From: an uncultured Pseudomonadota bacterium | GTDB lineage: Bacteria > Pseudomonadota > Gammaproteobacteria > Steroidobacterales > Steroidobacteraceae | NCBI GenBank assembly: GCA_903828595.1 | Contig: CAIKMS010000023.1 | Span: 1 to 64,000, forward strand | Direction: 5' to 3' | Length of the DNA stretch: 64,000 nucleotides | Shown here: piece after piece, positions 1 to 62,604 of the stretch | Layout: the number at the start of each line of letters is the position of its first letter | Position numbering within the stretch: the stretch's first letter is position 1 | Made by a program: the position numbers and the translations under genes | Notes under the pieces: model-generated | What the model saw: only the letters and a program-made list of their open reading frames with translations | The model's database searches: none | Told to the model about the DNA's origin: nothing

Positions 1-47
1 GGCCTGCAAAGCCGTCTACGCCGGTTCGATTCCGACCCTAGCCTCCA
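1..47 (+). tRNA. tRNA-Cys (GCA), 3' part
   Basis: The window opens inside a tRNA. Positions 4-10 read as the anticodon loop CTGCAAA with anticodon GCA. They are followed by the 3' side of the anticodon stem (GCCGT), a short variable loop, and a T arm (GCCGG, loop TTCGATT, CCGAC, one mismatch). The 3' acceptor strand CCTAGCC, discriminator T and encoded CCA end at 47. A U73 discriminator and the GCA anticodon are the usual identity marks of bacterial tRNA-Cys. The 5' half lies outside the window. Confidence 0.9.
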
Positions 48-177
48 TTCCTCAGTTTCCTAGACGCCGATAGGTTACCGGATTGCTATAACGCAGTCCG
101 TAGCCGGCCTTTGTCAGCGCTTTTCCATCCGGTGCGCTTAACATTCATCGGTCTGGTGGATTGCGTGACGAGGTGGT

Positions 178-1794
178 GTGTTGGGGAGGTGGCACAAAGC
201 TGGCCGTTGGGCTGCATGGCGCGTCGCCGCGCCGATGGCGGTGCTGCTCTTTCTCGCCGCCTGCGTGACGACCGCGGGCAGGGGCGGGCAGACATCGGTG
301 TCACCGGCCGATCTCGCCTGGCTTGATCGGCTAACCTTCGGTGTAGACAGCCGTATGCTCAGCAACTTTCAGGCCGGCGGCCGCGACGCCTACCTTGCTG
401 CGCAGCTCACGCCGCCCGGTGAGGCGCTGCCACCCGAGGTGGCGGCAGCGATCAGCCGTTTGACCACGGCCGGTCGTTCGCTGACCGACACCTACGCCTT
501 CGTGCAGGCCGAGGAAGCGAGGATCGCGGCGTTACCGAACGACGAGGCAAAGAGCGAGTCGCGTAATGCCCTGCGACGCGCCGGTCATGACGCGGCGACC
601 GAGGCCAAGAGCCGTCTGCTAATGCGCGCGCTCTACGGCCAGGACTCGCTGAACCAGCAGCTCGTCTGGTTCTGGTTAAACCACTTCAGCGTTTTTGAAG
701 GCAAGGCGAGGATCGGCTTCTGGCTCGCCGATTACGAGGCACACGCGATCCGCGCGCACGCGCTCGGGCACTTTCGCGACCTCGTGCTCGCGACCGCGCA
801 GCACCCGGCGATGCTCGAGTATCTCGACAACGCACAAAACGCTCAGGGTCACATCAATGAGAATTACGCCCGAGAGCTGCTCGAGCTGCACACGCTCGGG
901 GTCAACGGGGGTTACACCCAGAGCGATGTCGAAGCCCTGGCGCACGTGCTGACCGGTTTTGGCCTTAGAGGGGCGCAGCAGCCTAAGGGCAATCCGCGTC
1001 TGGGTAAGCTGCCACGCACGGACGGCGTGTTTTTGTTCAATCCTGGGCGCCATGACTATGGGCCTAAGCGGCTGTTTAGTCAGCCGCTTCGCTCGCGCGG
1101 CTACGATGAGCTCATCGAGGCGGTCGATCGGATCGTCAAGCAGCCCGCGTGCGCCGAGTTCATCGTACGCAAGCTTGCGGTGTATTTCGTGGGTGACGAC
1201 CCGCCGCCCGCACTCGTGGCGCGGGGGGTGGCGACGTTCCGTCGCACCGACGGTGACATCCGCGAGGTGCTGCGCACGCTGTTGACCGCGCCGGAGTTCC
1301 CAGCTTTGCTCGGGCACAAGTACAAGGACCCGATGCACTTCGTCACGAGTGCTTACCGTCTGGCCTATGATGGGCGCGCCGTGACCGATACAAAGCCCTT
1401 GCAGGAGGCGCTTCGCACGCTGGATCAGGGCCTATTCGGCCGTCAGACTCCGGACGGCTACCCGCTAACGTCCGGTGCCTACACGAGCTCGGGACAGCTC
1501 GCCAAGCGAATCGAGGTCGCGCGCGCCATCGGCGCAGGCGCGCTCGCCGCCGTGCCCGTCGCAATTTCTATGGTGGCGGGAAAAAGCCCCGGGACTGGTC
1601 CGGGGAGTGACCGTAGTATCGCGTCTACCGCGTCTGCCGCGAACGGTGGCTTCGCCCAGCTGTCGAACCGACTCTACTTCCAGGTAATCGAGCCTAGGCT
1701 GACGGCACAAACCAGACACACGCTCGGCGAGGCGCGCAGTGCGCAGGAGTGGAATGCGCTGCTGCTCGCCTCCCCGGAGTTTAATTACTACTGA
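178..1794 (+). CDS. DUF1800 family lipoprotein
   Basis: Predicted secreted lipoprotein of 538 residues with a GTG start. Residues 1-29 form a signal sequence ending in the lipobox LAAC, which would make Cys29 the lipidated residue. The body matches DUF1800 (PF08811) as I know it: an Arg/Leu-rich helical region, the motif LHTLGVNGGYTQSDV near residue 235, and HDYGPKRLF near 291. Residues of roughly 460-500 form a low-complexity Ser/Gly/Ala linker. The biochemical role of the family is unknown. It is commonly paired with DUF1501, as here, 48 bp downstream. Leucine is mostly CTC and arginine CGC, unlike genes further right, which suggests a different history. The exact start is uncertain, with GTG 178, TTG 181 or ATG 235 possible; only the first two keep a full signal peptide. 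Confidence 0.85.
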   Translation: MLGRWHKAGRWAAWRVAAPMAVLLFLAACVTTAGRGGQTSVSPADLAWLDRLTFGVDSRMLSNFQAGGRDAYLAAQLTPPGEALPPEVAAAISRLTTAGRSLTDTYAFVQAEEARIAALPNDEAKSESRNALRRAGHDAATEAKSRLLMRALYGQDSLNQQLVWFWLNHFSVFEGKARIGFWLADYEAHAIRAHALGHFRDLVLATAQHPAMLEYLDNAQNAQGHINENYARELLELHTLGVNGGYTQSDVEALAHVLTGFGLRGAQQPKGNPRLGKLPRTDGVFLFNPGRHDYGPKRLFSQPLRSRGYDELIEAVDRIVKQPACAEFIVRKLAVYFVGDDPPPALVARGVATFRRTDGDIREVLRTLLTAPEFPALLGHKYKDPMHFVTSAYRLAYDGRAVTDTKPLQEALRTLDQGLFGRQTPDGYPLTSGAYTSSGQLAKRIEVARAIGAGALAAVPVAISMVAGKSPGTGPGSDRSIASTASAANGGFAQLSNRLYFQVIEPRLTAQTRHTLGEARSAQEWNALLLASPEFNYY

Positions 1795-1804
1795 AGGACC
1801 AACC

Positions 1805-1846
1805 ATGCACGACCGAACTCGGCTAGCCAACGGGCGCCGCCCATGA
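1805..1846 (+). CDS. Possible 13-codon leader ORF coupled to the DUF1501 gene
   Basis: An ATG at 1805 has a good Shine-Dalgarno sequence (GAAGGA, six bases before it) and opens a 13-codon frame. Its stop TGA overlaps the ATG of the DUF1501 gene as ATGA at 1843. The DUF1501 start itself has no purine-rich site in front. This arrangement would fit translational coupling, with the short frame delivering ribosomes to the second start. The alternative is that the short frame is accidental. Confidence 0.35.
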   Translation: MHDRTRLANGRRP

Positions 1847-3033
1847 AGCGGCGCGCGGTTCTGACGGCGCTGCCGCTCGCCGTCGCGGGACTGTCTGTCA
1901 GCGGCCGCCTGCTCGCGGCGCCCGCAGGCTCAGCCAAGCTCCTCGTCGTGTTCCTGCGCGGCGGCTATGATTGCGCCAACGCGCTCGTGCCCTACGCCAG
2001 CCCGTTCTATTACGAATCCCGGCCAACGATCGCTATCCGTGCCGGTGCCGCGGAAGACCCAAGCCTCGCGCTGCCGCTCGATGCAAGCTGGGCGCTCGCA
2101 CCCGCACTCAAGCCCGCGTTCGGCCCGCTGTGGCTAAGTGGCGAGCTGGCCATCCTGCCGTTCGCCGGCACCGACGACCTGTCCCGTAGCCACTTCGAGA
2201 CGCAGGACGACATCGAGCTCGGGCTCGCGGCCAACGCCGGCCACCGCTTTGGCTCGGGTTTCATGGCACGACTCGCGACCGAGCTCACCGGCGCACGGCC
2301 TATCGCCTTTACCTCCGGTGTGCCGATGACCTTCGCCGGTCTTGCGGACGTACCGAGCATTGCGGTTCGTGAGGCTGGACGCATACCGCTCGATCCTACC
2401 GCGAGCGCCTTGTACCGTGAGCTCTATCGCGGCACGCCGCTCGAGGGCGCGGTCAACGAGGGGCTCAACCTGCGCGCCGAAGTGGCCGCTGATCTGGCCC
2501 AGGAAATGAAGGATGCCGGTCGCAAGGGTGCGAGCGCGCGCGGCTTTGCCAACGACGCGGCCCGAATCGGCACGCTGATGAAGGACGGCTACTCACTGGG
2601 CTTCGTTGACCTCGGCGGCTGGGACACGCATGTCAACGAGGGTGGTGCGGACGGGGCGCTCGCGCGCAACCTCGCCTCGCTCGGCGATGGGCTCCTCGCG
2701 TTCAAAACCGCCCTTGGCAGCGACTGGGCCCACACCACGGTGGTCGTGCTGTCTGAGTTTGGACGGACCTTCCGTGAGAACGGCAACCACGGTACCGATC
2801 ACGGTCACGGCAGTGTGTACTTTGTGCTGGGCGGGGGCGTGCGCGGCGGTCGTATCGTCGGCCGCCAGGTGGCCGTCGCCCGCGGCCAGCTCTTCCAGGA
2901 CCGGGACTATCCGGTGCTGAACAACTATCGCGACGTGCTCGGCGGGTTGTTCGCCAGTCAGTTTGGCTTGAGCGCCCGGGCGATCAATGCGGTGTTTCCA
3001 GGCGCCAAACCACAGGCGCTCGGCCTTGTGTAA
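1843..3033 (+). CDS. DUF1501 family protein, Tat-type signal
   Basis: Predicted exported protein of 396 residues in the DUF1501 family (alkaline phosphatase/sulfatase-like fold). The N-terminus carries a twin-arginine pair followed by a hydrophobic stretch ending near AxA, which suggests folded export by Tat. Conserved motifs are GGWDTHVNEG near residue 258 and EFGRTF...NHGTDHGHG around 304-322. The Asp and His residues in them are the expected metal ligands of this superfamily. It forms a pair with the DUF1800 lipoprotein upstream, a recurrent neighbourhood in proteobacteria whose substrate is not known. Codon use is as GC-rich as that of its partner. The start at 1843 is chosen because KRR directly precedes the hydrophobic region. 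Confidence 0.85.
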   Translation: MKRRAVLTALPLAVAGLSVSGRLLAAPAGSAKLLVVFLRGGYDCANALVPYASPFYYESRPTIAIRAGAAEDPSLALPLDASWALAPALKPAFGPLWLSGELAILPFAGTDDLSRSHFETQDDIELGLAANAGHRFGSGFMARLATELTGARPIAFTSGVPMTFAGLADVPSIAVREAGRIPLDPTASALYRELYRGTPLEGAVNEGLNLRAEVAADLAQEMKDAGRKGASARGFANDAARIGTLMKDGYSLGFVDLGGWDTHVNEGGADGALARNLASLGDGLLAFKTALGSDWAHTTVVVLSEFGRTFRENGNHGTDHGHGSVYFVLGGGVRGGRIVGRQVAVARGQLFQDRDYPVLNNYRDVLGGLFASQFGLSARAINAVFPGAKPQALGLV

Positions 3034-3352
3034 CGATGCCGGCAGTGGCCAGCCTGGGGTTCTTACCGTCACCGGACACGACCTATGACACTTACCGCTT
3101 CCTAACCCACTGGATTAACAGCGCCCGCACTGATGAACTTGCTCAACAGGGCCAGGGCCAGGGCCTGCCCTGCGCGGCTGACGTTGTGCGTAATAAGCCA
3201 GATCCGTCTGATCAACCTGAAGCGGACCCTAGGGTGAATGAGTCCGCCAACAAGCTCTGCGAATGGTTTAGCCAGCCCGGACGCGGCAGCCACCTCGTTT
3301 AGTGGCCTAGCAGGCCGTAAAGGAGAGCATCGATGCCTGGGTGCTGTGGAGC
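3034..3352. other. Intergenic region without a supported gene
   Basis: This 319-bp stretch separates DUF1501 from the convergent ypfJ-like gene. It contains a short AGGGCC direct repeat (about 3148-3166). The open frames across it (for example 3036-3302 on +) have no recognisable domain and look random in composition. I see no convincing terminator. Confidence 0.5.
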
Positions 3353-4216
3353 TCAGGCACCGTTGGCGGAGAAGGTGTCACAGGCCTTGATCTGGCCAGC
3401 GTCGAGCCCTTGCTTGAACCAGTGCATGCGCTGCTCTGAACTGCCATGGGTGAAGCTCTCTGGCTGTACGTAGCCGCGCGCAGCACGCTGCAACCGGTCA
3501 TCGCCGACGGCGGCCGCCGCGCTCATCGCTGACTCGATATCGCCCGCCTGAAGGACATTTTTCTGAGCCTGTGTGCGCGCGGCCCAGACACCCGCAAGGC
3601 AATCAGCCTGCAGCTCCAGCCGTACCGAGAGCGCATTCGCGCGCACCTTGTCGGTGCGCTGTTGGGCGTTGTGCACTCGGCCGGATACGCCGAGCAGGTT
3701 CTGCACGTGATGGCCTACTTCGTGTGCAACCACGTAGGCACGAGCGAATTCGCCCTGAGCGCCCAGACGGTTTTGCAGCTCGTCGAAGAAGCTAAGGTCA
3801 AGGTACACCTTCTGATCGGCCGGGCAGTAAAAAGGACCCATGGCGGATTGGGCGGTGCCGCAGGCTGACTGCGAGACATCACGAAACAAGACGAGCTTAG
3901 GCTCCCGGTAGGCCGCGCCGCCTTCACGAAATACCGAGTTCCACACGTCCTCGGTGTCAGCCAGCACCACACGAATGAAGTGATTTTGTTGTGACTCGGC
4001 CGCTGACTCCTGAATCGGGCCTGTGGCACGCGGCTGCGGCGTGGGTGCCGCCATGCGCTGGGCGTTAAGCACCATACTGGGATCACCGCCTAAGAACATC
4101 ACGACCAAGGCCAGTACCAGAGTGCCTAAGCCGCCTCCAACCACCGCGGTGCGGCCCATACCGGAACCACGCCGATCTTCTACATTGTCGCTTTCGCGTC
4201 GACCTTGCCAATCCAC
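3353..4216 (-). CDS. ypfJ: Neutral zinc metallopeptidase, YpfJ family
   Basis: Protein of 287 residues, the usual length for the YpfJ/zinc-metallopeptidase family (PF04228). A single membrane segment at about residues 22-43 anchors it, with the catalytic part predicted in the periplasm. The zinc-binding helix reads HEVGH at 165-169 (HEXXH: two His ligands and the catalytic Glu), followed by HVQNLLG, which is typical for the family. The start is GTG at 4216, supported by an AGGAG sequence seven bases upstream; a nearby ATG is out of frame. The physiological substrate of YpfJ is not established. It is transcribed alone, convergent with the DUF1501 gene. Confidence 0.9.
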   Translation of the reverse strand: MDWQGRRESDNVEDRRGSGMGRTAVVGGGLGTLVLALVVMFLGGDPSMVLNAQRMAAPTPQPRATGPIQESAAESQQNHFIRVVLADTEDVWNSVFREGGAAYREPKLVLFRDVSQSACGTAQSAMGPFYCPADQKVYLDLSFFDELQNRLGAQGEFARAYVVAHEVGHHVQNLLGVSGRVHNAQQRTDKVRANALSVRLELQADCLAGVWAARTQAQKNVLQAGDIESAMSAAAAVGDDRLQRAARGYVQPESFTHGSSEQRMHWFKQGLDAGQIKACDTFSANGA

Positions 4217-8074: not shown

Positions 8075-9424
8075 ATGAATGAGCAGATTGCCGGGGTTTT
8101 GTCAGGTACGCAGGTTGAGGTGATCTCTCCTGCGAATCTCAAGCCCGTGGGTACGACGCCTCAGGTGGATGCTCATGCTGTACAGCAGGCCGTTCGGACT
8201 TGCCTTGAAGCTCATCGTGCCTGGTCATCGGTGACTCGAGAGCATCGGTGCGCTCAACTCGCGGTGATCGCCGGTCGTTTACGGGCTGAGTGCGCCGCCT
8301 TTGCATTGTTGTTGTCGCAGGAGACAGGCAAGCCGCTGCGTGAGGCGCAACATTGCGTTACGGCGGTGATCGAGTGCTTCGAAAACCCCGAGGTCACCGC
8401 CCATCATCAAAGTTTATGGGCTGTGTTTCCGGCCCCGGCCTTCCCGCTGTGGTCTATGGCACTGCAAGTGGCTCCGGCTCTGGCGTCGGGGGCTAGCGTT
8501 ATCGTGTGTGCGCCCAGCACGGCCTTAACGCTGTTGAAGTTTGCCCAACTGTGTTGTCCGGTGCTTGCCGACGCGTTTTGGGTCTTAAGCGGTGGTTTAG
8601 AGGCTGCGCTGAGTCTGGCTAGCCACGTCGCGATTCAAGCCGTCTGGGTGGCTCGCGGCCGACCGGATCAGGAGCTGCTGCGCGAGGCAAGTCGGGCGCC
8701 GTGTCAGCTCTACGAGGTGTCGTTGGCAAGGCCCGGGCCTTTTATCGTCTGTGCCGATGCGGATGTTGATCAGGCAGTGGCCTGTATTGCATGGTCATGC
8801 CTAACCCAGTCCGGGCAAGTCACCGGTGTGTATCGCCAGGTGTTGCTCACTCCACAGGTTATGGATGCCTTTGTGGTGAAGTTACACGGCTATGTCGGCC
8901 TGCTCGAGGTGGGCAATCCTGTCACTTCCGACACTGACATCGGCCCGTTAGTGTCGTTAGAAGCCTTAACTCAAGTGGAGGCTCAGGTACTGGGGCTGTT
9001 ACGTGCCAAGGCGACCTTAGTCATGGGCGGTCGTCGATTCAGCCCTGGTGGACTGCGAGGGTGGTTCATGCAGCCTACCGTACTGAGCGACGTGCCGTGG
9101 GATCTCACCTTGGGACCGAGCTGCATTAACGGTCCGGTCATTCTTTTGAGTCTGGTGCGTGATCTGGATGAGGCTCTTTTGGCCGCTGAGGTTATTAGTG
9201 CGGGTCAGGGAGCGGTTATTTTTACCAACAATCTTCCGGCTCTAGGCGTTGCTCTAGCTACGCGATCAACCGGCAACTATTTTGTTAACGATCCAGAGCT
9301 TTCCGGTTCGCCTTTGATCGGGCGAGGTCAGACCCTGCGGTTGACCGATCAGCCCCAGATCTTCCAGGCCGCGGCGATTACCGCTAAGCCCTGGTGGTTT
9401 CCCTACGGCCAAGCCCGCGGCTAA
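8075..9424 (+). CDS. Aldehyde dehydrogenase-fold protein lacking catalytic residues (AstD-like)
   Basis: About 449 residues of recognisable aldehyde dehydrogenase fold, closest by eye to succinylglutamate semialdehyde dehydrogenase (AstD). It keeps SQETGKP early and an ADADVDQAV segment in the middle. The residues of catalysis look lost: the motif normally holding the nucleophilic Cys reads SGQVTGVY (Thr at about 250), the PxNFP-type oxyanion Asn region reads FPAPAFP, and the EE.FGP motif reads LGPSCINGP. The Glu of the E-L-G-G motif may remain (YEVSLARPGP). It is therefore a probable pseudoenzyme or a protein with a new role rather than an active dehydrogenase. The frame extends upstream to a TTG at 8000 that would add a hydrophobic N-terminus; ATG 8075 is preferred but its ribosome site is weak. 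Confidence 0.75.
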   Translation: MNEQIAGVLSGTQVEVISPANLKPVGTTPQVDAHAVQQAVRTCLEAHRAWSSVTREHRCAQLAVIAGRLRAECAAFALLLSQETGKPLREAQHCVTAVIECFENPEVTAHHQSLWAVFPAPAFPLWSMALQVAPALASGASVIVCAPSTALTLLKFAQLCCPVLADAFWVLSGGLEAALSLASHVAIQAVWVARGRPDQELLREASRAPCQLYEVSLARPGPFIVCADADVDQAVACIAWSCLTQSGQVTGVYRQVLLTPQVMDAFVVKLHGYVGLLEVGNPVTSDTDIGPLVSLEALTQVEAQVLGLLRAKATLVMGGRRFSPGGLRGWFMQPTVLSDVPWDLTLGPSCINGPVILLSLVRDLDEALLAAEVISAGQGAVIFTNNLPALGVALATRSTGNYFVNDPELSGSPLIGRGQTLRLTDQPQIFQAAAITAKPWWFPYGQARG

Positions 9425-9491: not shown

Positions 9492-9698
9492 GGCGTTCAC
9501 GCTGCGCTGCGATATGCACACCCGGGGTCTGGCTCTGACTTTGTTATCTCAGGTGAGGCTGCACAACCCGCGTCGGCATGACCGAGTGGTCGCTCGCAGA
9601 CTACGTTCCGGATGCAGAGCGCGTTATAGTTGAAAGCCGTAGGAGTTTGACGCGCAGGCGTCACTGTTTTTTGTGCGTTCGATACCGGGAGTGGCTTT

Positions 9699-11891
9699 AT
9701 GCGAATGATTAAACCGTGGCAGCTGGGGGCGATGGTGCTGGTGGCCTTAGGGCTCGGTGCCTGTCATCAGTCGACAACGCCCAACGCGGTGGTAGCTCCG
9801 GCACCCGTGGCGGCTGGTGCGATCGATGCGGCCCGGTTAGCCAAAGCAACCAGCGAACCGGATCAGTGGCTAGCCACCGGCCGAGACGCGGGTGGCACTT
9901 ACTTCAGTCCCCTGACGGATATCAATGCCAGCAACGTGTCGAAATTGGGGTTTGCTTGGGAACGCAAGCTCGGCACCCACCGCGGGTTGGAGGCTACCCC
10001 GGTAGTCGTCGACGGTGCGCTTTACACCACCGGCGTGTTTGGCTGGGTTTACGCGGTCGATGCCGCCACCGGTAAAGAGTTGTGGACCTATGATCCGAAA
10101 GTTGATGGGCAATGGGGTCGCTATGCCTGTTGTGATGCGATTAACCGCGGTGTCGCCGTTTGGCAGGGTCGAGTTTATGTGGGTGCTCTGGACGGTTATC
10201 TGCACGCCATTGATGCCGCCACCGGCAAGCAAATTTTTAAGGTTGATACGTTGCCAGCGCGCGGACCTAAGACCCCGTACACGCTTACAGCGACACCGGT
10301 CGTGGCCGGTGACGTCATTATTGTGGGTAGCGCGGGCGCTGATTTTGCGGGTGCGCGTGGTTATATTGCCGCCTACGATTTAAAGAGTGGGGCTTTACGC
10401 TGGCGCTTTTACACGGTGCCGCACGATCCTAAGGATGGGCCTCAGGACCAGCCGCACCTGGTAGAGGCGGTGAAGACTTGGGATCCTCGACATCGTTGGG
10501 ATCAGGGCAGTGGTGCCACGGTTTGGGACGGCATCAGTTACGACCCTAAGCTGAACTTGGTGTACATCGGAACTGCCAATGGCGCACCGTACAACATCAA
10601 GGCAGATGGGCGTGCCGGTGGCGATGATTTATACAGCGCGGCGATTGTTGCCGTTCACGCCGATAGCGGTCAGTTGGCCTGGTTTTATCAGACCACACCC
10701 GGGGATCGCTGGGACTTCGATAGCACGCAGAAGATGGTACTGACGGATCTGGATTTGGGGCAGGGCCCTCAGCCCGTGCTGATGCAGGCGGCCAAAAACG
10801 GTTTTTACTACGTGTTAGACCGCGTCACCGGAAAGTTGCTGTCCGCCGACAGCTATGCCTACGTCAATTGGTGCAAGGGTATTGATCCGGTCACCGGACG
10901 GCCGATTCCGAACCCAGCTGCCGAGTATTTGAAACAAGCTCGATTGATGTTCCCGGCCAATGCCGGTGCGCACAGTTGGCAACCCATGTCCTACGATTCG
11001 CAGACCCGACTGACCTACATCCCGTCGATGGAATGGCCCATGGTTTACATGGATTCGGCCAAACAAAGAGCGGGCATGATCGAGGGTTTTTTCACCGTGC
11101 CGGCTTTCCCCAGCGAAGACTACGTGCCCAAAGATTTGGAGAGTCTGTACGGCAAGTTGCCGCCCTTAGCGCAATTAGCAAAAGGCGGGCCAGAGCCTAA
11201 ACCCATGGGCTTTTTGCGTGCTTGGGATCCGGTCAAGAAGAAATTAGCTTGGGAGGTACAAACCGCCAGCAACTGGGATGGTGGCGTGTTGTCGACCGCC
11301 GGCGGCCTGGTCTTTCAGGGGGACTCAGCGGGCTATCTAAACGTCTACAAGGCACAGGACGGCACCAAACTCGCCAGTGTTCATGTCGGCACCGGGATCA
11401 TGGCGGCACCGGCCACCTATCGCGTCGGTGGAGTCCAGTACGTCGTGGTGATGGCCGGCTTTGGCGGTAACTACGTGGGCTATCCACTCAGAAAGCAGCA
11501 CGCGGCGTATAACTACGAGAACGAAGGTCGAATTATCGCCTTCAAACTCGACGGCGGGGCCGTGCCCTTGCCGACCGAGTTGAAAGATGAGCCATTCCCA
11601 CAACCCCCTCAGCGAGAGGGAAGTGCCAAGACCATTGCGCAGGGTGAGGTGCTGTACAACCGTTATTGCATGCGCTGCCACGAACTCGGTCGTGGTGTGC
11701 TCCCCGATCTGCGCCGCTTAACGGCCGCTAAGCACGAGATCTTCTACGATATCGTGCTCGGTGGAGTGCTCAAGGCCAAGGGCATGGCGCAGTGGGACGA
11801 TGTCTTATCTCGCGGCGACGCCGAGGCCATTCACGCCTATATCGTTGACGAGTCCTGGAAGGCTTACAGCGCCCAGCAAACCGCGCATTGA
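9699..11891 (+). CDS. PQQ-dependent alcohol dehydrogenase, quinohemoprotein lipoprotein
   Basis: Protein of 730 residues. The first 22 residues end in the lipobox LGAC, so Cys22 would be lipid-anchored in the periplasm. The main body is an eight-bladed PQQ propeller with repeated W-motifs. It has the adjacent cysteine pair at 144-145 that forms the vicinal disulfide over PQQ, and WDFDS in the region of the catalytic Asp. A single C-terminal cytochrome c domain carries CMRCH at 657-661. This makes it a type II quinohemoprotein, oxidising an alcohol or similar substrate and passing electrons to its own heme; the substrate cannot be read from sequence. Heme attachment would depend on the ccm operon in this window. 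No PQQ synthesis genes are present here. Confidence 0.9.
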   Translation: MRMIKPWQLGAMVLVALGLGACHQSTTPNAVVAPAPVAAGAIDAARLAKATSEPDQWLATGRDAGGTYFSPLTDINASNVSKLGFAWERKLGTHRGLEATPVVVDGALYTTGVFGWVYAVDAATGKELWTYDPKVDGQWGRYACCDAINRGVAVWQGRVYVGALDGYLHAIDAATGKQIFKVDTLPARGPKTPYTLTATPVVAGDVIIVGSAGADFAGARGYIAAYDLKSGALRWRFYTVPHDPKDGPQDQPHLVEAVKTWDPRHRWDQGSGATVWDGISYDPKLNLVYIGTANGAPYNIKADGRAGGDDLYSAAIVAVHADSGQLAWFYQTTPGDRWDFDSTQKMVLTDLDLGQGPQPVLMQAAKNGFYYVLDRVTGKLLSADSYAYVNWCKGIDPVTGRPIPNPAAEYLKQARLMFPANAGAHSWQPMSYDSQTRLTYIPSMEWPMVYMDSAKQRAGMIEGFFTVPAFPSEDYVPKDLESLYGKLPPLAQLAKGGPEPKPMGFLRAWDPVKKKLAWEVQTASNWDGGVLSTAGGLVFQGDSAGYLNVYKAQDGTKLASVHVGTGIMAAPATYRVGGVQYVVVMAGFGGNYVGYPLRKQHAAYNYENEGRIIAFKLDGGAVPLPTELKDEPFPQPPQREGSAKTIAQGEVLYNRYCMRCHELGRGVLPDLRRLTAAKHEIFYDIVLGGVLKAKGMAQWDDVLSRGDAEAIHAYIVDESWKAYSAQQTAH

Positions 11892-11909
11892 TTACGGCCG
11901 AACGCCACA

Positions 11910-11939
11910 TTGGCCTGGGTGTTTGCACACCCGGGCCAA
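11910..11939 (+). terminator. Strong hairpin after the PQQ dehydrogenase gene
   Basis: A 13-pair stem (TTGGCCTGGGTGT with ACACCCGGGCCAA, one G-T pair) closes a TTGC loop, starting 18 bases after the stop. There is no T-run on the + strand, so it may act in 3' end protection or Rho-aided termination. Confidence 0.5.
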
Positions 11940-12113
11940 GGAGATGGAAAATGCCGGAATTGAATTTTTTGTGATCGCGATGGACAACGTCGTCTTTTTA
12001 AGGGTTAACTGAAACGCAAGCCGTCGGCGGTCCTTTTCAAACGAGGGCCTAAGGTTGATGGCCAGCCCGTGAGGATATCGAGTACGTAAGATCGCAACGT
12101 CGGGAGTGAGTCG

Positions 12114-12719
12114 ATGGACCCAAAGACTACGGCGCTCGTGTTGGTGGGTTACCAAAACGATTATTTCGCTAGTGACGGAATCCTTCGTGGCGTGGTCGAA
12201 AATCAGGGCCGCGTGGATACGGTCCTTAAAAACACCGTGGCGTTTATCGACTCTATTGCATCGTTAGAGGTTGCGGTATTCGCTACACCGTTTTTTCATG
12301 ATCCCAACTATCGAGATCAGGCGGCGACAGTGGGGATTTTGCATTCCATCAAAGAGTCAGGCGCCTTTAGGCTCGGCACCACAGGTGCTCAGACCATTCC
12401 GGAATTGTTAGCGATGGCCGACCGAGTGACCTATCTCGAAGGCAAGTGTGGCTTTAATGCGTTTGCCACAACGACACTCGATGCAGCATTAAAAGCCCGT
12501 GGCATCAAAGACGTGCTTGTTGCGGGCATGATTACCTCGTTATGCATCGATTCAACGGCGCGAGCTGCATATGAATTGGGCTATACGGTCAGCATACTGT
12601 CGGATTGCACCTCGGGTCGTACCGATACTGAGCAAGAGTTTTATTGTGACAAGGTGTTCCCGTTGTACGGCCGAGTGGTCAATAGCCCGGTGCTGACGGC
12701 GGAGTTGCGTGCGGGCTAG
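12114..12719 (+). CDS. Isochorismatase-like cysteine hydrolase, catalytic Asp replaced
   Basis: Protein of 201 residues with the isochorismatase/nicotinamidase fold. The expected catalytic Cys lies in MITSLCID (Cys144) and the Lys in EGKCGF (Lys111). The first triad residue, an Asp in the usual VD.QNDF motif, reads Gly12 in VGYQNDYF. The protein may therefore use another residue, or bind without hydrolysing. The start ATG is preceded by GGGAG. The gene is followed 20 bp later by a hybrid kinase in the same direction, so the two could be cotranscribed. The substrate is unknown; relatives act on amides, ureas or isochorismate. Confidence 0.82.
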   Translation: MDPKTTALVLVGYQNDYFASDGILRGVVENQGRVDTVLKNTVAFIDSIASLEVAVFATPFFHDPNYRDQAATVGILHSIKESGAFRLGTTGAQTIPELLAMADRVTYLEGKCGFNAFATTTLDAALKARGIKDVLVAGMITSLCIDSTARAAYELGYTVSILSDCTSGRTDTEQEFYCDKVFPLYGRVVNSPVLTAELRAG

Positions 12720-12739
12720 CGATTAATGCGGTGTCTGTC

Positions 12740-15148
12740 ATGAGTGAATCGGACCTTGAACTGGCAGCGGCAAGACGCTCGGATCTCGGCGTCGAGGTCA
12801 CTCATCGCCTGGTGGAGGCCTTGGTTGAGTCGGAGCAACGCATGCGCCGGCGCCTCGATCAGATCTCAGAAGTCGTGTTTGAAACCGATGTTTCTGGTCG
12901 CTTGGTCTTCATCAACGGTGCGTGGACCCGCCTGACGGGTTTGAGCATTGATGAGTGCGTAGGTCGCAACCTAACTGACTATGTCGCTGATGAGTACCGC
13001 GAGATCATCACACGGCACTTGGCAACCTCTACCATTGATCAGCCTCGCGTACGAGTCCGCCTGAAATTCCCAGTCGCTAGTCCGTTGTGGGTCGACATGC
13101 ACGGTGTCGCCTTAAAAGGGGTAGGCACGGTGGGCTCTTTTTATGACTGCAGCGCGGAGAAAAAAGCGCAAGATGAGCTCATCAAGTTGTCGATTGTGGC
13201 GAGCTCGACCGACAACCTGGTTGTCATTACTTGTCCTGAGGGGCGAATTGAATGGGTTAATGAGGCCTTTTCGCTAACCACCGGGTATCAGCTCGAAGAA
13301 GTCATTGGCCGCAAACCCGGGCAGTTTTTACAGAGCGAGTTGACCGATAAGGAAGCTGTAGCTCGTATTTCACAGGCACTGAAGTCCGGCACTTCGGTGT
13401 ATGAGGAACTTCAAAACTTTTCCAAGGATGGCACACCCTACTGGGTCGCACTGCAGATCAAACCTATCTTTGATGCGCAGGGTCGCGTAGAGCGATTCAT
13501 CTCGGTGCAAACTAATTCCACGGCCAGTAAGCGCCGACAGGAGAAAGTGCTTCAGCAGAAAAGTGAGCTTGAGCAGCGCGTAATGTTACGTACGGCTGAA
13601 TTAGCGCGCGCGACTCGGCAAGCCGAGCAGGCTGCACAAGTGAAGAGCGAGTTTCTGGCTAATATGAGCCATGAGATTCGTACGCCACTGACCGCGATTA
13701 TTGGATTCATGCGTTTGTGTCTGAATACCAACCTAGATAACCAGCAACACGACTATATTGCTAAAACAGAAATCGCCACCCGCAATCTGGTGCATATCGT
13801 TAACGATATTCTGGACTTTTCAAAGATTGAGGCGGGTGCCGTGGAGTTTCTTGCTGAGCCTTTCTCGGTAGTCTCGGCGCTGCGGCACGTGGAGATGCTG
13901 CTGGGTAACGCCGCAAGGGATAAACACCTGGAGTTTTTGGTTGATGTCGCACCCAATGTTCCGCGTGCTTTGGTGGGTGATGCGCTTCGATTAGAACAAG
14001 TGTTGTTGAACTTAGTTTCCAACGCGCTTAAGTTCACCCATGAGGGCGGAGTTTTTATACAGGTGACGGTGATCTCCTGCGACAACCAGTCGGTCCGCCT
14101 GAAGTTTGAAGTTCGTGATACCGGTATAGGCCTGAGTTCGCAGCAGATAGGGCGGCTGTTTACTGCTTTTTCTCAGGCTGATAGTTCGACCACTCGGCAA
14201 TTTGGTGGTACGGGTCTGGGGTTGGCCATCAGTCAGCGTTTGGTCGCGCAGATGGGCGGCCAGATCGTGGTGCACAGTGCGCCAAGCCAGGGAAGCATTT
14301 TTGCCTTCGAATTGACTTTTGATACCGTGCCCGGCGAATTGCTTGACCAGATGGATAACGCCACGATCCCTCGAATGGTGCAACCGCGTTTACGCGATGC
14401 ACGTATTTTGCTAGCCGAAGATAACCCGTTTAATCAGCAAGTCATTGCCGAATTGCTCGAATCGGTGGGCGCTAAGGTCACTGTGGCGAATAACGGACGC
14501 GAGGCTATTGATATTCTGCAAGGGGCGAATAGCTTTGATCTGGTCTTGATGGATATGCAGATGCCTCAAATGGACGGTGTTGAAGCCACACGGCGCTTGC
14601 GTGCCGATCCGCGCTTTGAGAAGTTGCCTATAGTCGCGCTCTCGGCCAATGCGTCGCGCGCTGATCACATGCGGTGTCTAGAGGCCGGCATGAACGACTT
14701 CGAGGCCAAACCCATTGAGCCTGGACAGTTATACGCAACTCTCAGTAAATGGCTTCCCGCGCAGGCGCGCGCCTCGGGCGCTGCTCGCCCGCCGGTCGCG
14801 GTTAAGGCCAGCCTGGCGCCAGCGGCTGATATCGGTGCCCTAGGCGCGTTTGTAAAGGGCGATCCGATTAAAGTGCGTAAGCTCGTTGACACGTTCGTAG
14901 AAAGTTCGTACCGCATGTTGGCGGAGATCCAGGCGGCAGCTGCGCAACAGCAGTGGCCTGAGGTTTCGCGCGGAGCGCATTTTCTTAAAGGTGCCGGTGC
15001 GATGGTTCAGGCCGAGCGTTTAGTGAGTTTATGCAGTCGGTTGGAGGCGGCGGCTCTGCAGCCACAGGCCGCCGAGGTTCAGGAGTGCGTGATGGCCATG
15101 CCGCAGTCGATCGCCGAGGTGGTTGACGCGTTGAGGATGGAGGCCTGA
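12740..15148 (+). CDS. Hybrid sensor histidine kinase PAS-PAS-HisKA-HATPase-REC-Hpt
   Basis: Cytoplasmic protein of about 802 residues with no membrane segments. In order: PAS at about 30-140; a second PAS/PAC at about 150-270; a coiled coil; HisKA with the phosphorylated His in MSHEIRTP near 310; HATPase with the GTGLGL box near 490; a receiver with LMDMQMP near 605; and an Hpt domain with AHFLKGAGA near 750. It holds the complete His-Asp-His relay in one chain and needs only a final response regulator, which is not adjacent. The second PAS has GRKPGQFLQ where light-sensing LOV domains have GxNCRFLQ, so the flavin Cys is absent. The start is either ATG 12740 or GTG 12731. Confidence 0.92.
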   Translation: MSESDLELAAARRSDLGVEVTHRLVEALVESEQRMRRRLDQISEVVFETDVSGRLVFINGAWTRLTGLSIDECVGRNLTDYVADEYREIITRHLATSTIDQPRVRVRLKFPVASPLWVDMHGVALKGVGTVGSFYDCSAEKKAQDELIKLSIVASSTDNLVVITCPEGRIEWVNEAFSLTTGYQLEEVIGRKPGQFLQSELTDKEAVARISQALKSGTSVYEELQNFSKDGTPYWVALQIKPIFDAQGRVERFISVQTNSTASKRRQEKVLQQKSELEQRVMLRTAELARATRQAEQAAQVKSEFLANMSHEIRTPLTAIIGFMRLCLNTNLDNQQHDYIAKTEIATRNLVHIVNDILDFSKIEAGAVEFLAEPFSVVSALRHVEMLLGNAARDKHLEFLVDVAPNVPRALVGDALRLEQVLLNLVSNALKFTHEGGVFIQVTVISCDNQSVRLKFEVRDTGIGLSSQQIGRLFTAFSQADSSTTRQFGGTGLGLAISQRLVAQMGGQIVVHSAPSQGSIFAFELTFDTVPGELLDQMDNATIPRMVQPRLRDARILLAEDNPFNQQVIAELLESVGAKVTVANNGREAIDILQGANSFDLVLMDMQMPQMDGVEATRRLRADPRFEKLPIVALSANASRADHMRCLEAGMNDFEAKPIEPGQLYATLSKWLPAQARASGAARPPVAVKASLAPAADIGALGAFVKGDPIKVRKLVDTFVESSYRMLAEIQAAAAQQQWPEVSRGAHFLKGAGAMVQAERLVSLCSRLEAAALQPQAAEVQECVMAMPQSIAEVVDALRMEA

Positions 15149-58742: not shown

Positions 58743-61364
58743 CTAGCGGCGTCGGTTCAATCGCTTCGACGCTACGCCAAATAGCGCACCGCCCAGTGCC
58801 AGAAACGACCACGCTGGCAATGGACCATCGGAACCCTCCGGGTTGGGAGCAACGCCGGTGCCGGCGACGCTCACGGTAACACTGCTGCCGCCGCTCACGC
58901 CCACGGACAGTGTGGCTGCACGACTCCCAGTGGAGGTTGGGTCAAAGCTCACGTTGAGATAACAGCTCGTTCCGGGGCTTAAGGACAAGCCATTGGTGCA
59001 GGACCCGGATTGTGTGAAGTCCGCGGCCGCGCTTCCGCTAAATCCTACGGCACCTAAAACGACGTTGGCATTGCCGCTGTTGCTGACAAGAATCTTTTGA
59101 ACGGTGCTGTTTTGACCGACAAACTGACTGGCAAAACTTAAGGTGCTGACAGACACCTGCAGCGCGCCGGTATTACCACCCGATCCTGTGCCGGCAGCCT
59201 GTGTAACCGTTAGGGTTTGCGTGTTGCCGCCTGCCGTCACCGTGATGATGCCTTGTCGCGCGTTGGTGGCCGTATTGGTGCTGACACCAAAGGTGAGCGG
59301 TGCGCTGCCCGTGCCGGTAACGGTCTGTAGGCCGTAGCTACCGATGTTACCTACCGCCCCGGCGGTCGATAAGCGCAGCCACGAGGATCCTTTAGTCACC
59401 GAGGCGCTCCAGGTAGTGGTTGAGGCCAGCACCAGGGCTGCGCTACCTACCAACGTACTGCCCAGATTAGTGGGGCTGGCCGGTACGGTCACGGTGGTTG
59501 GCGTGAGGCCTGAGGCCGTGCCCTTGAACTGGCTCCAATTGTTGATTAGCAGGGCCGCGTCGATGGAGCCTAAGCCGGTGGCTAAATTGTAGTTGGGGTT
59601 GGTGGTGGAGGCCGAGTAACCGGCCACGCCGGGTACCGTGTTATTGCCACTTACAATGCGATGAAAGATGCCCGGCCCGCCGGCGACCTGCAGCTCGGAG
59701 AGTCCATAAAGCACGGGATTAAAGTTTCCCAGCCGCCCACCCTGGCGTTGCGCCACCAAAGCGGCAACACCGGCCATTGCCGGTGCAGAGGCAGAAGTAC
59801 CACCAAAGGCTGTTTCCGTACTGGTTTGGGTCGCGTTGTCGGAGGTAAAGACGTAGTAAGTATCGTGAGAGTTGGAGGCGTTGAAGGACACGTCTGGCAC
59901 GTCACGCAACCCATCACTGGGCACGCCGCTCGCGTATTGCCATAGCGGCTTTGTGTAATAACGGCTCGCACCACCGCCGGTGGCATACAAGCCCGACCCG
60001 CTCGTGTTCCATACCGCTTCAGGAATGTAGGATAAAGCCGAGCCACCGTTGGTGGGTGAGTTAGTTGCCGCCCAGTACGTGCTGGGGTTTGAGGCATCGC
60101 CAACAAATTGAGTGCCGCCTACACACGTGCTGTAGGGCGAGCTGCAAAGCGCATTCACGGCCGCACCGTGCGTGGCGGTGCTCACGTTAGCCGCATCACA
60201 CCCGGCGGCTCCGGAATCACCGGAGGCGACAAATACACTGATTCCCTGGGCTGCAGCTTGCTGCCAAAGTTGATTAAAGAACGTGGTTGAGGCGGTTGTA
60301 TCCGTTGCGCTCTCACAACTACCGTAGCTGAGACTGATAATGTCAGCGACGTCGTTGGTGACCGCGTAGCTGGCCGCTGTCACAATGCCATCCGTAGTGC
60401 CCGCGGTCGCGGCAACCACGAAGTTGATGGTCGCACCCGGTGCAATTCCACCCGACCACTGCAGATCCAAATCAGACTCGAGTTGATCGCCGGACACGTA
60501 GCCCGGTTGGCTGCCTGCCAATACCGTCGTAGGCAGTGTCGCGCTAATGCCGGCCTGTTGTCTAAAGCTTAGGATGTCGCCATTGTGAACGTTGGTGCGT
60601 CCAATGACGGCGATGGAGCGGCCAGCGCCGGTAATACCTTGGTTATAAGCAGGATTAAGGTTGTAGATAGTCGCGAAGTCGGCAGGCAACAGGTAATAAC
60701 CACAGCAAGCGCTCGTTGAGGCGGGACGTACCTTGCGTTTGTCGCGTAGAGACAGGGGCTGGGAGGTGAAATCGTGCAGGGAGGCGAAACCAATTACCAC
60801 CGGCGCTAGGGCGGCGGGCAGGGAGGGATTACTGGCCGTGGCCAGATGTCGCTCACCATTGAGCAGATAACGGTGAAAGCGGGTGCCAAAGGAACTGTTC
60901 AGCTGGCCCAGGGTTCCGGAAAAGCTCATCACACGACTGCCCGGTAGCATCTCGATCTGGGCGAATCCGTGACGGATTAACCAGGTTTTTAAGGTTGCCT
61001 GATCTGACTGCGCGATCCCAAATCGCGAGGCGAAGGTCGCGGGTGTCAGCCAGCGATGAAAGTCAGCAGACGAAGGATTTTGCGCATTGACCAGAAACTG
61101 GTTCAGCTCTTGTTCCTGACTGGCGCTGGCGCGCAGTTGCAGAAACATCTTTCCCGTGGGCAGCGTGGGATCCGCATCACCCAGATCCTGAGAACGTTCG
61201 ATGGCCGGGTGTACGTGGCCCTTAAGCTCGACACGTACCGTCTCATCAATAGGTTGAGTCAGGCGGGCGCGCGCGCCACCCTGCGCTACGGCGAGTAACG
61301 GAAGCAATAACGAGAACGCCACGCCGATGACTGGCAGCCCTACACGTGACGCATCTAATCGCAT
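58743..61364 (-). CDS. S53 sedolisin-family protease with BACON-like and C-terminal sorting-type domains
   Basis: Secreted protein of 873 residues. Signal peptide (ends AVAQGG), then a pro-kumamolisin activation domain (about 40-190), and a sedolisin catalytic domain (about 215-600) with ESDLDLQW (Glu/Asp of the triad), SGDSGAAGCD (oxyanion Asp) and GGTSASAPAMAG (nucleophilic Ser). Two beta-sandwich regions follow, the first BACON-like, the second choice-of-anchor D-like. The last 32 residues are GPLPAW, a hydrophobic helix and a basic NRRR end, which looks like an exosortase sorting tail. The gene lies directly downstream of an XrtH-like exosortase pair. It would be an acid-type endopeptidase held at the envelope or released after sorting. 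Confidence 0.88.
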   Translation of the reverse strand: MRLDASRVGLPVIGVAFSLLLPLLAVAQGGARARLTQPIDETVRVELKGHVHPAIERSQDLGDADPTLPTGKMFLQLRASASQEQELNQFLVNAQNPSSADFHRWLTPATFASRFGIAQSDQATLKTWLIRHGFAQIEMLPGSRVMSFSGTLGQLNSSFGTRFHRYLLNGERHLATASNPSLPAALAPVVIGFASLHDFTSQPLSLRDKRKVRPASTSACCGYYLLPADFATIYNLNPAYNQGITGAGRSIAVIGRTNVHNGDILSFRQQAGISATLPTTVLAGSQPGYVSGDQLESDLDLQWSGGIAPGATINFVVAATAGTTDGIVTAASYAVTNDVADIISLSYGSCESATDTTASTTFFNQLWQQAAAQGISVFVASGDSGAAGCDAANVSTATHGAAVNALCSSPYSTCVGGTQFVGDASNPSTYWAATNSPTNGGSALSYIPEAVWNTSGSGLYATGGGASRYYTKPLWQYASGVPSDGLRDVPDVSFNASNSHDTYYVFTSDNATQTSTETAFGGTSASAPAMAGVAALVAQRQGGRLGNFNPVLYGLSELQVAGGPGIFHRIVSGNNTVPGVAGYSASTTNPNYNLATGLGSIDAALLINNWSQFKGTASGLTPTTVTVPASPTNLGSTLVGSAALVLASTTTWSASVTKGSSWLRLSTAGAVGNIGSYGLQTVTGTGSAPLTFGVSTNTATNARQGIITVTAGGNTQTLTVTQAAGTGSGGNTGALQVSVSTLSFASQFVGQNSTVQKILVSNSGNANVVLGAVGFSGSAAADFTQSGSCTNGLSLSPGTSCYLNVSFDPTSTGSRAATLSVGVSGGSSVTVSVAGTGVAPNPEGSDGPLPAWSFLALGGALFGVASKRLNRRR

Positions 61365-61483
61365 GAAACTCTAGTCCATTGAACAAGCAATCGCCGAACC
61401 CGATGTTTAACGCCGATACCTTATCCGTGGCTTATTACAGGTTGATGTGTAAATTAGGACGGTAGAATAGGGCAACTGCTGGG

Positions 61484-62077
61484 TTATTTGATGCGCGATG
61501 TATCGCGAATTCGGGCTAAACCGACCGTTGCGAGCCCCCCCAGACCGGCCAGAGCGATGCGACCTCCGCTTTCCAGTACACGTGTCCAGATCTCCCACGG
61601 CGTCGTGGGAGTCGCTTCCCCCATATAGATCGCGTTAGCTTCAGCAAAGGCATGTAGCAAAGACAGCACGGTGGTTAGCGCATCAAGCAGTAACAACACC
61701 GGCAGGCCCAATAGAAGCCTGCGCCGCCACTCTCGCCAACTGCCGGCCGGCAAAAGCAACACCACACCGATAAAGACAAGCGGGCCTTGCAGCACGGCGG
61801 CGATTTGGATAACGCCCGTGACTGTGGCGAAGCCGTGTCTGTGTAACGTGGGATCATAGACTCGACCGACCAGTTGCAGGGTCCGTGGGTGACCCGGGAC
61901 GCTATCTACAATTTGCACACGATCAACGTACCAGCCTTGGCTGCTGGCAATGAGTTGCGCGGTGAATTGGTAATAGGGGACGGCTACGCGCGCATAGCCA
62001 GGTGCGATCAGGCCGCCCAGCGCCAACAACACGCTACCCAAAATCGCCAAGCGCCAGTGTGAGTGTGGTGCTAACAC
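61484..62077 (-). CDS. Membrane protein paired with exosortase (XrtH-associated type)
   Basis: Protein of 197 residues with three or four helices: residues about 10-28, 97-118, 126-150 and near the C-terminus. A periplasmic beta-rich section lies between the first and second. It starts (GTG 62077) inside the last codons of the exosortase gene, so the two are translationally coupled. A family called exosortase H-associated membrane protein exists; assignment to it is by size, topology and position, not by a motif I can verify. Its likely role is in substrate recognition or assembly. Confidence 0.6.
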   Translation of the reverse strand: MLAPHSHWRLAILGSVLLALGGLIAPGYARVAVPYYQFTAQLIASSQGWYVDRVQIVDSVPGHPRTLQLVGRVYDPTLHRHGFATVTGVIQIAAVLQGPLVFIGVVLLLPAGSWREWRRRLLLGLPVLLLLDALTTVLSLLHAFAEANAIYMGEATPTTPWEIWTRVLESGGRIALAGLGGLATVGLARIRDTSRIK

Positions 62078-62604
62078 GATGGCGGCGCAGGATCACAAGC
62101 GCTGGTCGTTCCCGACCAGTGAAGAAAGTACAGGGCAACACCCAGTACTGGAGTAAGGGGTAGAACCAGTCCGTGCAGGGCTTCCCACGCTTGGGGTGAG
62201 TAGCGTAGCGTTAAAAATAACGCGCTAAGTCGCAATACGCTTAACAGGTAGGTAACCACACTTCCGCAAACTAGGCCAACCGTTCGTTCGCGCGCGCTCG
62301 CCGGATAAGCGAAAAGTGCAGAGATTAATAGCAGCAGCGTCTCCGTGCCGTCACAGCCACGCACCACATTCAGTCGCGTGCTGCCACTGATCAATGAAAT
62401 ACCCTGAGAGTAGACGGTATCTGGTGAAAGCCCGAGCGACAGCAAGGCCGCCGTCGGCTGCAATAAGGCGCTTTGCAGTAAGGCAGGCCAGAGACTGCTA
62501 GTGCGCAACGCTTCAAGCGCGCCCAAAAGTCCGGCAAACACTAAGGCAAAACGCAGGCCAAAGCGCACCGAGGGTGATTGAATCAGTGGGTTGGGTAGTG
62601 GCAC
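62071..62604 (-). CDS. xrtH: Exosortase, XrtH-like
   Basis: Membrane protein of 177 residues with about seven helices. It has the exosortase/archaeosortase triad in order: Cys in NVVRGCDGTETLLLL near residue 83, Arg in SVLRLSALF near 122, and His in WEALHGLVLPL near 140. Its small size fits the XrtH group, which in other species acts on IPTLxxWG-CTERM proteins. These enzymes cut and attach secreted proteins with C-terminal tripartite tails. The linked S53 protease carries such a tail (PLPAW, helix, RRR). The residue usually Asn three before the Arg is Ser here. Confidence 0.82.
   Translation of the reverse strand: MPLPNPLIQSPSVRFGLRFALVFAGLLGALEALRTSSLWPALLQSALLQPTAALLSLGLSPDTVYSQGISLISGSTRLNVVRGCDGTETLLLLISALFAYPASARERTVGLVCGSVVTYLLSVLRLSALFLTLRYSPQAWEALHGLVLPLTPVLGVALYFLHWSGTTSACDPAPPSC

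Follow-up and report, generated by a model that had tools for sequence, protein, structure and literature searches.

The window analyzed here, the whole 64,000-nucleotide (nt) stretch from an uncultured member of the Steroidobacteraceae (contig CAIKMS010000023.1, positions 1 to 64,000), carries a small exosortase locus in which the enzyme gene is followed by genes for a partner protein and for an S53 peptidase with a C-terminal tail of sorting-signal type. The three genes lie on the minus strand and span 62604-58743 in the order exosortase, partner, peptidase; this order and all coordinates given in the initial annotation were recovered. The partner starts with a GTG at 62077 within the final codons of the exosortase gene (GTGTTAG), a 7-nt overlap that bears out the proposed coupling of the two, and the S53 gene begins 119 nt past the partner stop. 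A single transcript across the three genes is plausible; promoter and terminator scans of the locus gave nothing better than shuffled sequences. The G+C content of the locus (0.583) is near that of the window (0.566), so that composition shows no sign of recent transfer. The features are as follows.

62071..62604, minus strand: XrtM-clade exosortase of 177 amino acids (aa), GTG start; assigned by TIGR04178, best named family XrtM, invariant triad and tree position.
62353-62355, 62230-62232 and 62173-62175, minus strand: catalytic residues Cys84, Arg125 and His144 of the exosortase.
61484..62077, minus strand: exosortase partner, 197 aa; assigned by the 7-nt overlap and an aligned family (A3, 16 members), with no NCBIfam or Pfam match above cut-off.
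58743..61364, minus strand: S53 sedolisin/kumamolisin pre-pro-peptidase, 873 aa; assigned by Pfam, NCBIfam and alignment to kumamolisin.
61281..61364, minus strand: Sec-type signal peptide of the peptidase, residues ~1-28 (boundary approximate), with a hydrophobic segment at 8-26; sequence MRLDASRVGLPVIGVAFSLLLPLLAVAQGG.
58746..58832, minus strand: tripartite tail of the peptidase (SDGPLPAW, hydrophobic helix, KRLNRRR); tail profile 8.9e-12; sequence SDGPLPAWSFLALGGALFGVASKRLNRRR.
58809..58826, minus strand: motif GPLPAW, residues 847-852, which the exosortase is proposed to recognize; from an alignment of 13 tails.

The 177-aa protein had been described as an exosortase with a Cys-Arg-His triad, and profile searches place it inside the exosortase/archaeosortase superfamily. 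It scores 34.6 bits against the superfamily signature TIGR04178 (cut-off 23), C84, R125 and H144 are invariant in an alignment of the exosortase and its relatives (five sequences), and a simple scan finds three strong hydrophobic segments, as in a multi-pass membrane protein. Against PF09721 it scores 21.9, under the cut-off of 25.7. Among named families the best score is to XrtM (TIGR04300, 68.9 bits), followed by XrtX (43.1) and XrtH (TIGR04177, 37.1, under its cut-off of 86). XrtH, the family first used as reference, is thus not the family of this enzyme, and the tree described below likewise groups it with the XrtM clade. A sequence-profile search of PDB returned no solved relative of the exosortase or of the partner. 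The AlphaFold model of the exosortase is all-helical and of low confidence (predicted local distance difference test [pLDDT] score 47, built on two sequences); this model and that of the partner (pLDDT 62) are too poor for the geometry of the triad to be used or for a search by fold.

The partner is predicted to have an N-terminal transmembrane helix, an extracytoplasmic segment, further transmembrane helices and a conserved GGGR-like signature; three strands are predicted in the extracytoplasmic segment by the low-confidence AlphaFold model, for which two sequences were used. Although no Pfam or NCBIfam family scored above cut-off, the same partner family lies downstream of the exosortase in all 16 XrtM-clade loci that we compared. 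In L066, a representative of the XrtH clade, this place is taken by the known XrtH-associated protein (117.6 bits, cut-off 35). Membership of the partner in that XrtH-associated family was considered and rejected: the two profiles matched with 46% probability along no more than 53 N-terminal columns, and homology is not claimed on so weak and local a match.

The third gene does encode an S53 protease, as first annotated. The pro-kumamolisin activation domain (PF09286) is recognized at 81.5 bits (cut-off 23.5), the protein aligns to kumamolisin across residues 105-601, and E296, D300 and S524, together with the oxyanion residue D383, match the Ser-Glu-Asp and Asp residues of kumamolisin. Judged from this alignment, the catalytic residues are intact. 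Sedolisins are expected to mature under acid conditions. The linker between catalytic domain and tail includes a BACON-like match barely below cut-off and a choice-of-anchor D/HYDIN-like domain. A second S53 sedolisin in the same genome (G000:C26:176036-177205, minus strand; L156 850-2790) stops right after the catalytic domain and has neither linker domains nor tail. Genome G002, of the same genus, encodes an S53 protein 56% identical to that of the window behind a different upstream gene, on a contig that stops ahead of the tail region.

The C terminus of the peptidase had been read as GPLPAW, hydrophobic helix and NRRR, and this is what 58746-58832 encodes. P and W are invariant in the alignment of 13 tails. 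The motif departs from the IPTLxxWG signal of XrtH substrates but keeps P, L and W, as had been noted, and the IPTL-CTERM models (TIGR04174 and PF18203, cut-offs 20.5 and 20.8 bits) gave no match to the protein or its tail at E = 10. None of the curated sorting-signal models exceeded its cut-off on the tail (VPAMP-CTERM, 17.0 against 32), and a PEP-CTERM (PF07589) scan of the genome at E up to 10 did not list it. The PLPxW pattern has 11 matches in the DNA of the 3.09-Mb genome, only one of which, that of the window, is C-terminal and precedes a hydrophobic helix and basic end. A 29-position tail profile, built from exosortase neighbours and including the window tail, has a single significant match in this genome (8.9e-12; next E = 0.14). 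When left out of the profile, the window tail keeps 29.9 bits (independent E-value 2.1e-8 over 1199 open reading frames); each tail left out in turn scores 10.0-29.9 bits against the profile of the others, the lowest being L052, a standard IPTL tail. The window tail is not a chance match.

By these profile and pattern searches, no other protein of the genome carries such a tail, and the wider set of targets that had been sought was not found there. Haft and Varghese called a system dedicated when its enzyme has a single target, and noted that the two are in that case usually neighbours (PMC3237569). This is the pattern seen at the window locus, so that a lone target beside its own enzyme is compatible with a dedicated pair. 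Two further exosortases, both large, are encoded on contigs C25 and C30 of this genome, along with some ten proteins of PEP-CTERM or VPxPA type, among which the window tail is not counted. Two adjoining 172-aa PEP-CTERM proteins with near-identical C-termini lie at G000:C11:13092-13913 on the minus strand (L075, L076), apparently a tandem duplication.

Relatives of the locus were collected by an exosortase profile search of 369 genomes of the class, which found 27 places in 25 genomes. A genome scan identified L015, from a bog gammaproteobacterial metagenome-assembled genome, with an exosortase 41% identical to that of the window and an overlapping partner; convergent to it lies an S8 subtilase (not S53) that ends in DGPLPLWAYGLLALLMGLVARRRLGRLAPA, with the motif DGPLPLW. 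Within the taxonomic family of the window, L020 has an S53 protein (DGPIPLW), L021 a small RHS-like protein (NGPLPLW) and L022 a 5'-nucleotidase-like protein (DAPLPLW). At L022, the XrtM-clade exosortase is separated from the DAPLPLW gene by a VPLPA-CTERM protein (8119-8946, plus strand), so that two sorting signals adjoin.

In a tree of 31 rows, 16 XrtM-clade sequences split from 15 XrtH-clade sequences with support of 99/96, and by this sequence comparison the XrtM clade is sister to XrtH in this sampling. The window and L015 group at 100/99, and the clade of the window also includes L050 (127.3 bits) and L056 (136.0 bits), both of which exceed the XrtM cut-off of 125. Several branches are long, which makes the inner order unsure. 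L020-L022 form a subclade apart from the window and L015; this placement, together with the sporadic distribution of the enzymes, suggests transfer between lineages. L050 also contains a second, short XrtM-like frame (1599-1898, plus strand) with its own intact partner (1876-2487, plus strand), ~7 kb from the full-length pair.

Across these loci, 12 of the 16 in the XrtM clade have a neighbouring gene whose product ends in P-x(0,1)-[LI]-[PS]-x-W, a helix and a basic end, at distances of -63 to 909 nt from the exosortase. The same was seen at one of the 15 XrtH-clade loci (L072, a true IPTL tail), a difference with Fisher p = 1.4e-4 among loci that are related by descent. The tails range from short forms (GPLPAW, GPLPLW, GPIPLW, DIPIPAW, VPLPPW) to long ones (IPxLPxW, IPTLxEW) that grade into the XrtH signal, and that of L052 passes the Pfam IPTL-CTERM cut-off. 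At L055 an IPTL-type tail is found near 13010-13090, internal to a long RHS-like frame (9914-14485, plus strand) beside an XrtM-clade exosortase; this is probably a gene fusion or a lost stop.

The 14 tail-bearing neighbours in XrtM-clade loci comprise three S53 peptidases (window, L020 and L060), five S8 peptidases (L015, L051, two genes in L053, and L059), two toroid, or squalene-cyclase-like, proteins (L051 and L052), two RHS-like proteins (L021 and L055), one 5'-nucleotidase-like protein (L022) and one leucine-rich-repeat (LRR) protein (L054). Eight of the 14 are thus clan-SB serine peptidases, which at an assumed, not measured, background of 1% and with imperfect independence has a probability of ~3e-13. 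Further tails, away from an exosortase, are borne by a fragmentary S53 protein (L103) and by M10 proteins of matrixin type (L098/L099, L117). Toroid proteins recur by XrtM-clade exosortases, at L051 (8551-10041, plus strand), L052 (5664-7043, minus strand) and L056 (~9568-11318, minus strand), where the neighbouring frames look broken.

The co-occurrence of tail and exosortase, for which the initial annotation had called, was examined in the 369 genomes with tail hits at an E of 1e-4 or better. Thirteen genomes had a tail; eight of them carried an XrtM-clade enzyme, four an XrtH enzyme and one (G200) neither. An XrtM or XrtH enzyme is therefore present in 12 of the 13 (p = 6e-15). With the seven profile-training genomes dropped, carriers made up five of the six remaining tail genomes, compared with 18 in 362 (p = 1e-6).

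Several observations weigh against a dedicated system. The 68.9 bits of the window enzyme fall short of the curated XrtM cut-off, and for this reason we name it XrtM-clade and not a member of TIGR04300. L050 and L056, which do pass, have no tail nearby and none significant genome-wide, and XrtM-clade enzymes are present without a significant tail in G132 and G187. G200, a fragmented assembly, has one tail and no detected enzyme. G001, which shares its genus with the window, encodes two DGPLPPW proteins (L117 649-1590, plus strand, the M10 matrixin; L120 475-1587, plus strand, with a HELAE motif), and its 420 contigs contain no exosortase of any kind by profile or signature. In G001 a PEP-CTERM-like tail likewise lacks an exosortase, which, together with the fragmentation of this assembly, makes assembly loss possible but unproven. 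The sampled genomes are not phylogenetically independent, and because the tail profile derives from exosortase neighbours, the leave-one-out and training-excluded figures are the only non-circular ones.

Taken with these points, the data support the dedicated exosortase-peptidase pair first proposed for this locus: an exosortase and partner stand beside a tail-bearing gene in most XrtM-clade loci, across distinct lineages, and the carriers are most often S8 or S53 peptidases. The three genes probably form a dedicated XrtM-partner-substrate sorting unit, through which an acid protease would come off the membrane for surface display or release. Cleavage and transfer, the identity of the acceptor, where the protease ends up and what the partner does are all inferred from sequence and analogy. 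After Sec export the protease would stay in the inner membrane, retained there by its C-terminal helix, and its Arg/Lys end would lie in the cytoplasm. The XrtM-clade exosortase, aided by the partner, would then attack the [DN]-G-P-L-P-x-W tail at or near PLPAW via Cys84, assisted by Arg125 and His144, and the helix would be removed. The new C-terminus would be transferred to an acceptor, for which an amino-containing lipid or another envelope component is the likeliest candidate, whereupon the protease would leave the membrane; possible roles of the partner are to place the substrate or to provide the acceptor.

This mechanism draws on homology to archaeosortase A and analogy to rhombosortase. 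Archaeosortase A of Haloferax volcanii belongs to the same homologous superfamily, although it is an archaeal enzyme with a PGF tail motif (PGF-CTERM); in its model the active-site Cys is linked to the substrate before a lipid ethanolamine attacks (PMC7157517). Rhombosortase is an unrelated enzyme, a rhomboid serine protease, with an unrelated motif (GlyGly-CTERM). Its single targets nonetheless tend to adjoin it (PMC3237569), and in Vibrio cholerae its cleavage of the VesB tail leads to glycerophosphoethanolamine conjugation and surface display of this serine protease (PMC6219818). XrtF of Flavobacterium johnsoniae is likewise a variant exosortase with an adjacent partner; both are required for biofilm formation and surface colonization, as cited in PMC12188702, where the XrtF targets are reported as unknown, whereas a target can be proposed at the window locus.

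Three other readings have to be weighed. The tail might be read by one of the large PEP-CTERM-type exosortases on C25 or C30, the small enzyme having another target. Those enzymes and a set of PEP-CTERM and VPxPA-type proteins are present, and PLPAW superficially resembles VPLPA tails; nevertheless, the PEP-CTERM model omits the window tail even at E = 10 and PLPxW tails recur beside XrtM-clade enzymes in many genomes, and we consider this reading unlikely. A helix followed by Arg could also serve as a stop-transfer signal, and tails occur without a detected exosortase in G001 and G200, as would suit a permanent C-terminal membrane anchor within an inherited gene block and no cleavage. A plain anchor, however, would need neither a motif nor an exosortase neighbour, and this motif, with its invariant P and W, is shared by S53, S8, 5'-nucleotidase, RHS-like, LRR and toroid proteins, which are unrelated to one another; that explanation is highly unlikely.

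Finally, the locus could be a drifted XrtH/IPTL-CTERM system and not a distinct one. The XrtH system (TIGR04177, TIGR04174/PF18203, partner NF041730) also combines a small enzyme, a tail with P, L and W, and an overlapping or adjacent membrane partner of ~200 aa; the two clades are sisters in this sampling, and tails grade into IPTLxxW at L052, L055 and the XrtH locus L072. Set against this are the separate clade, the preference of the enzyme for the XrtM model (68.9 against 37.1 bits), a partner with at most the weak 53-column match, and a window tail that is one residue shorter and unmatched by the IPTL model at E = 10. We regard this reading as very improbable. XrtM itself is the closest named system by score, and L050 and L056, over its cut-off, share clade and partner with the window enzyme, which lies under that cut-off; those two loci differ in having no recognizable tail nearby. 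In the literature searched, neither substrates nor a partner are described for XrtM, and no substrate paper was found for XrtH or IPTL-CTERM.

Elsewhere in the window, positions 1-4000 have a G+C content of 0.645, against 0.54-0.58 in the rest, with long open reading frames at 178-1794 and 1843-3033.

The enzyme superfamily and the principle of the tripartite tail are already known; what is undescribed, as far as the tools and literature searched show, is the form of the tail, the family of the partner and the bias towards peptidases. Beyond the sorting unit at this locus, the XrtM clade and its partner may, more tentatively, constitute a compact and horizontally mobile sorting module mainly for secreted peptidases (S53, S8 and perhaps M10), in which separate protease families would each have gained a P-x(0,1)-[LI]-P-x-W tail; among exosortases, this would be the counterpart of rhombosortase and VesB. 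Targets and chemistry of small variant exosortases are largely unknown, and the window locus offers an enzyme, a partner and an assayable enzyme-substrate in three adjacent genes, making recognition, cleavage site, acceptor and partner role directly testable. It also gives annotation a partner family and a sorting-signal variant that are both new. If the peptidase bias is true, it would point to a general means for Gram-negative bacteria to keep digestive proteases surface-held.

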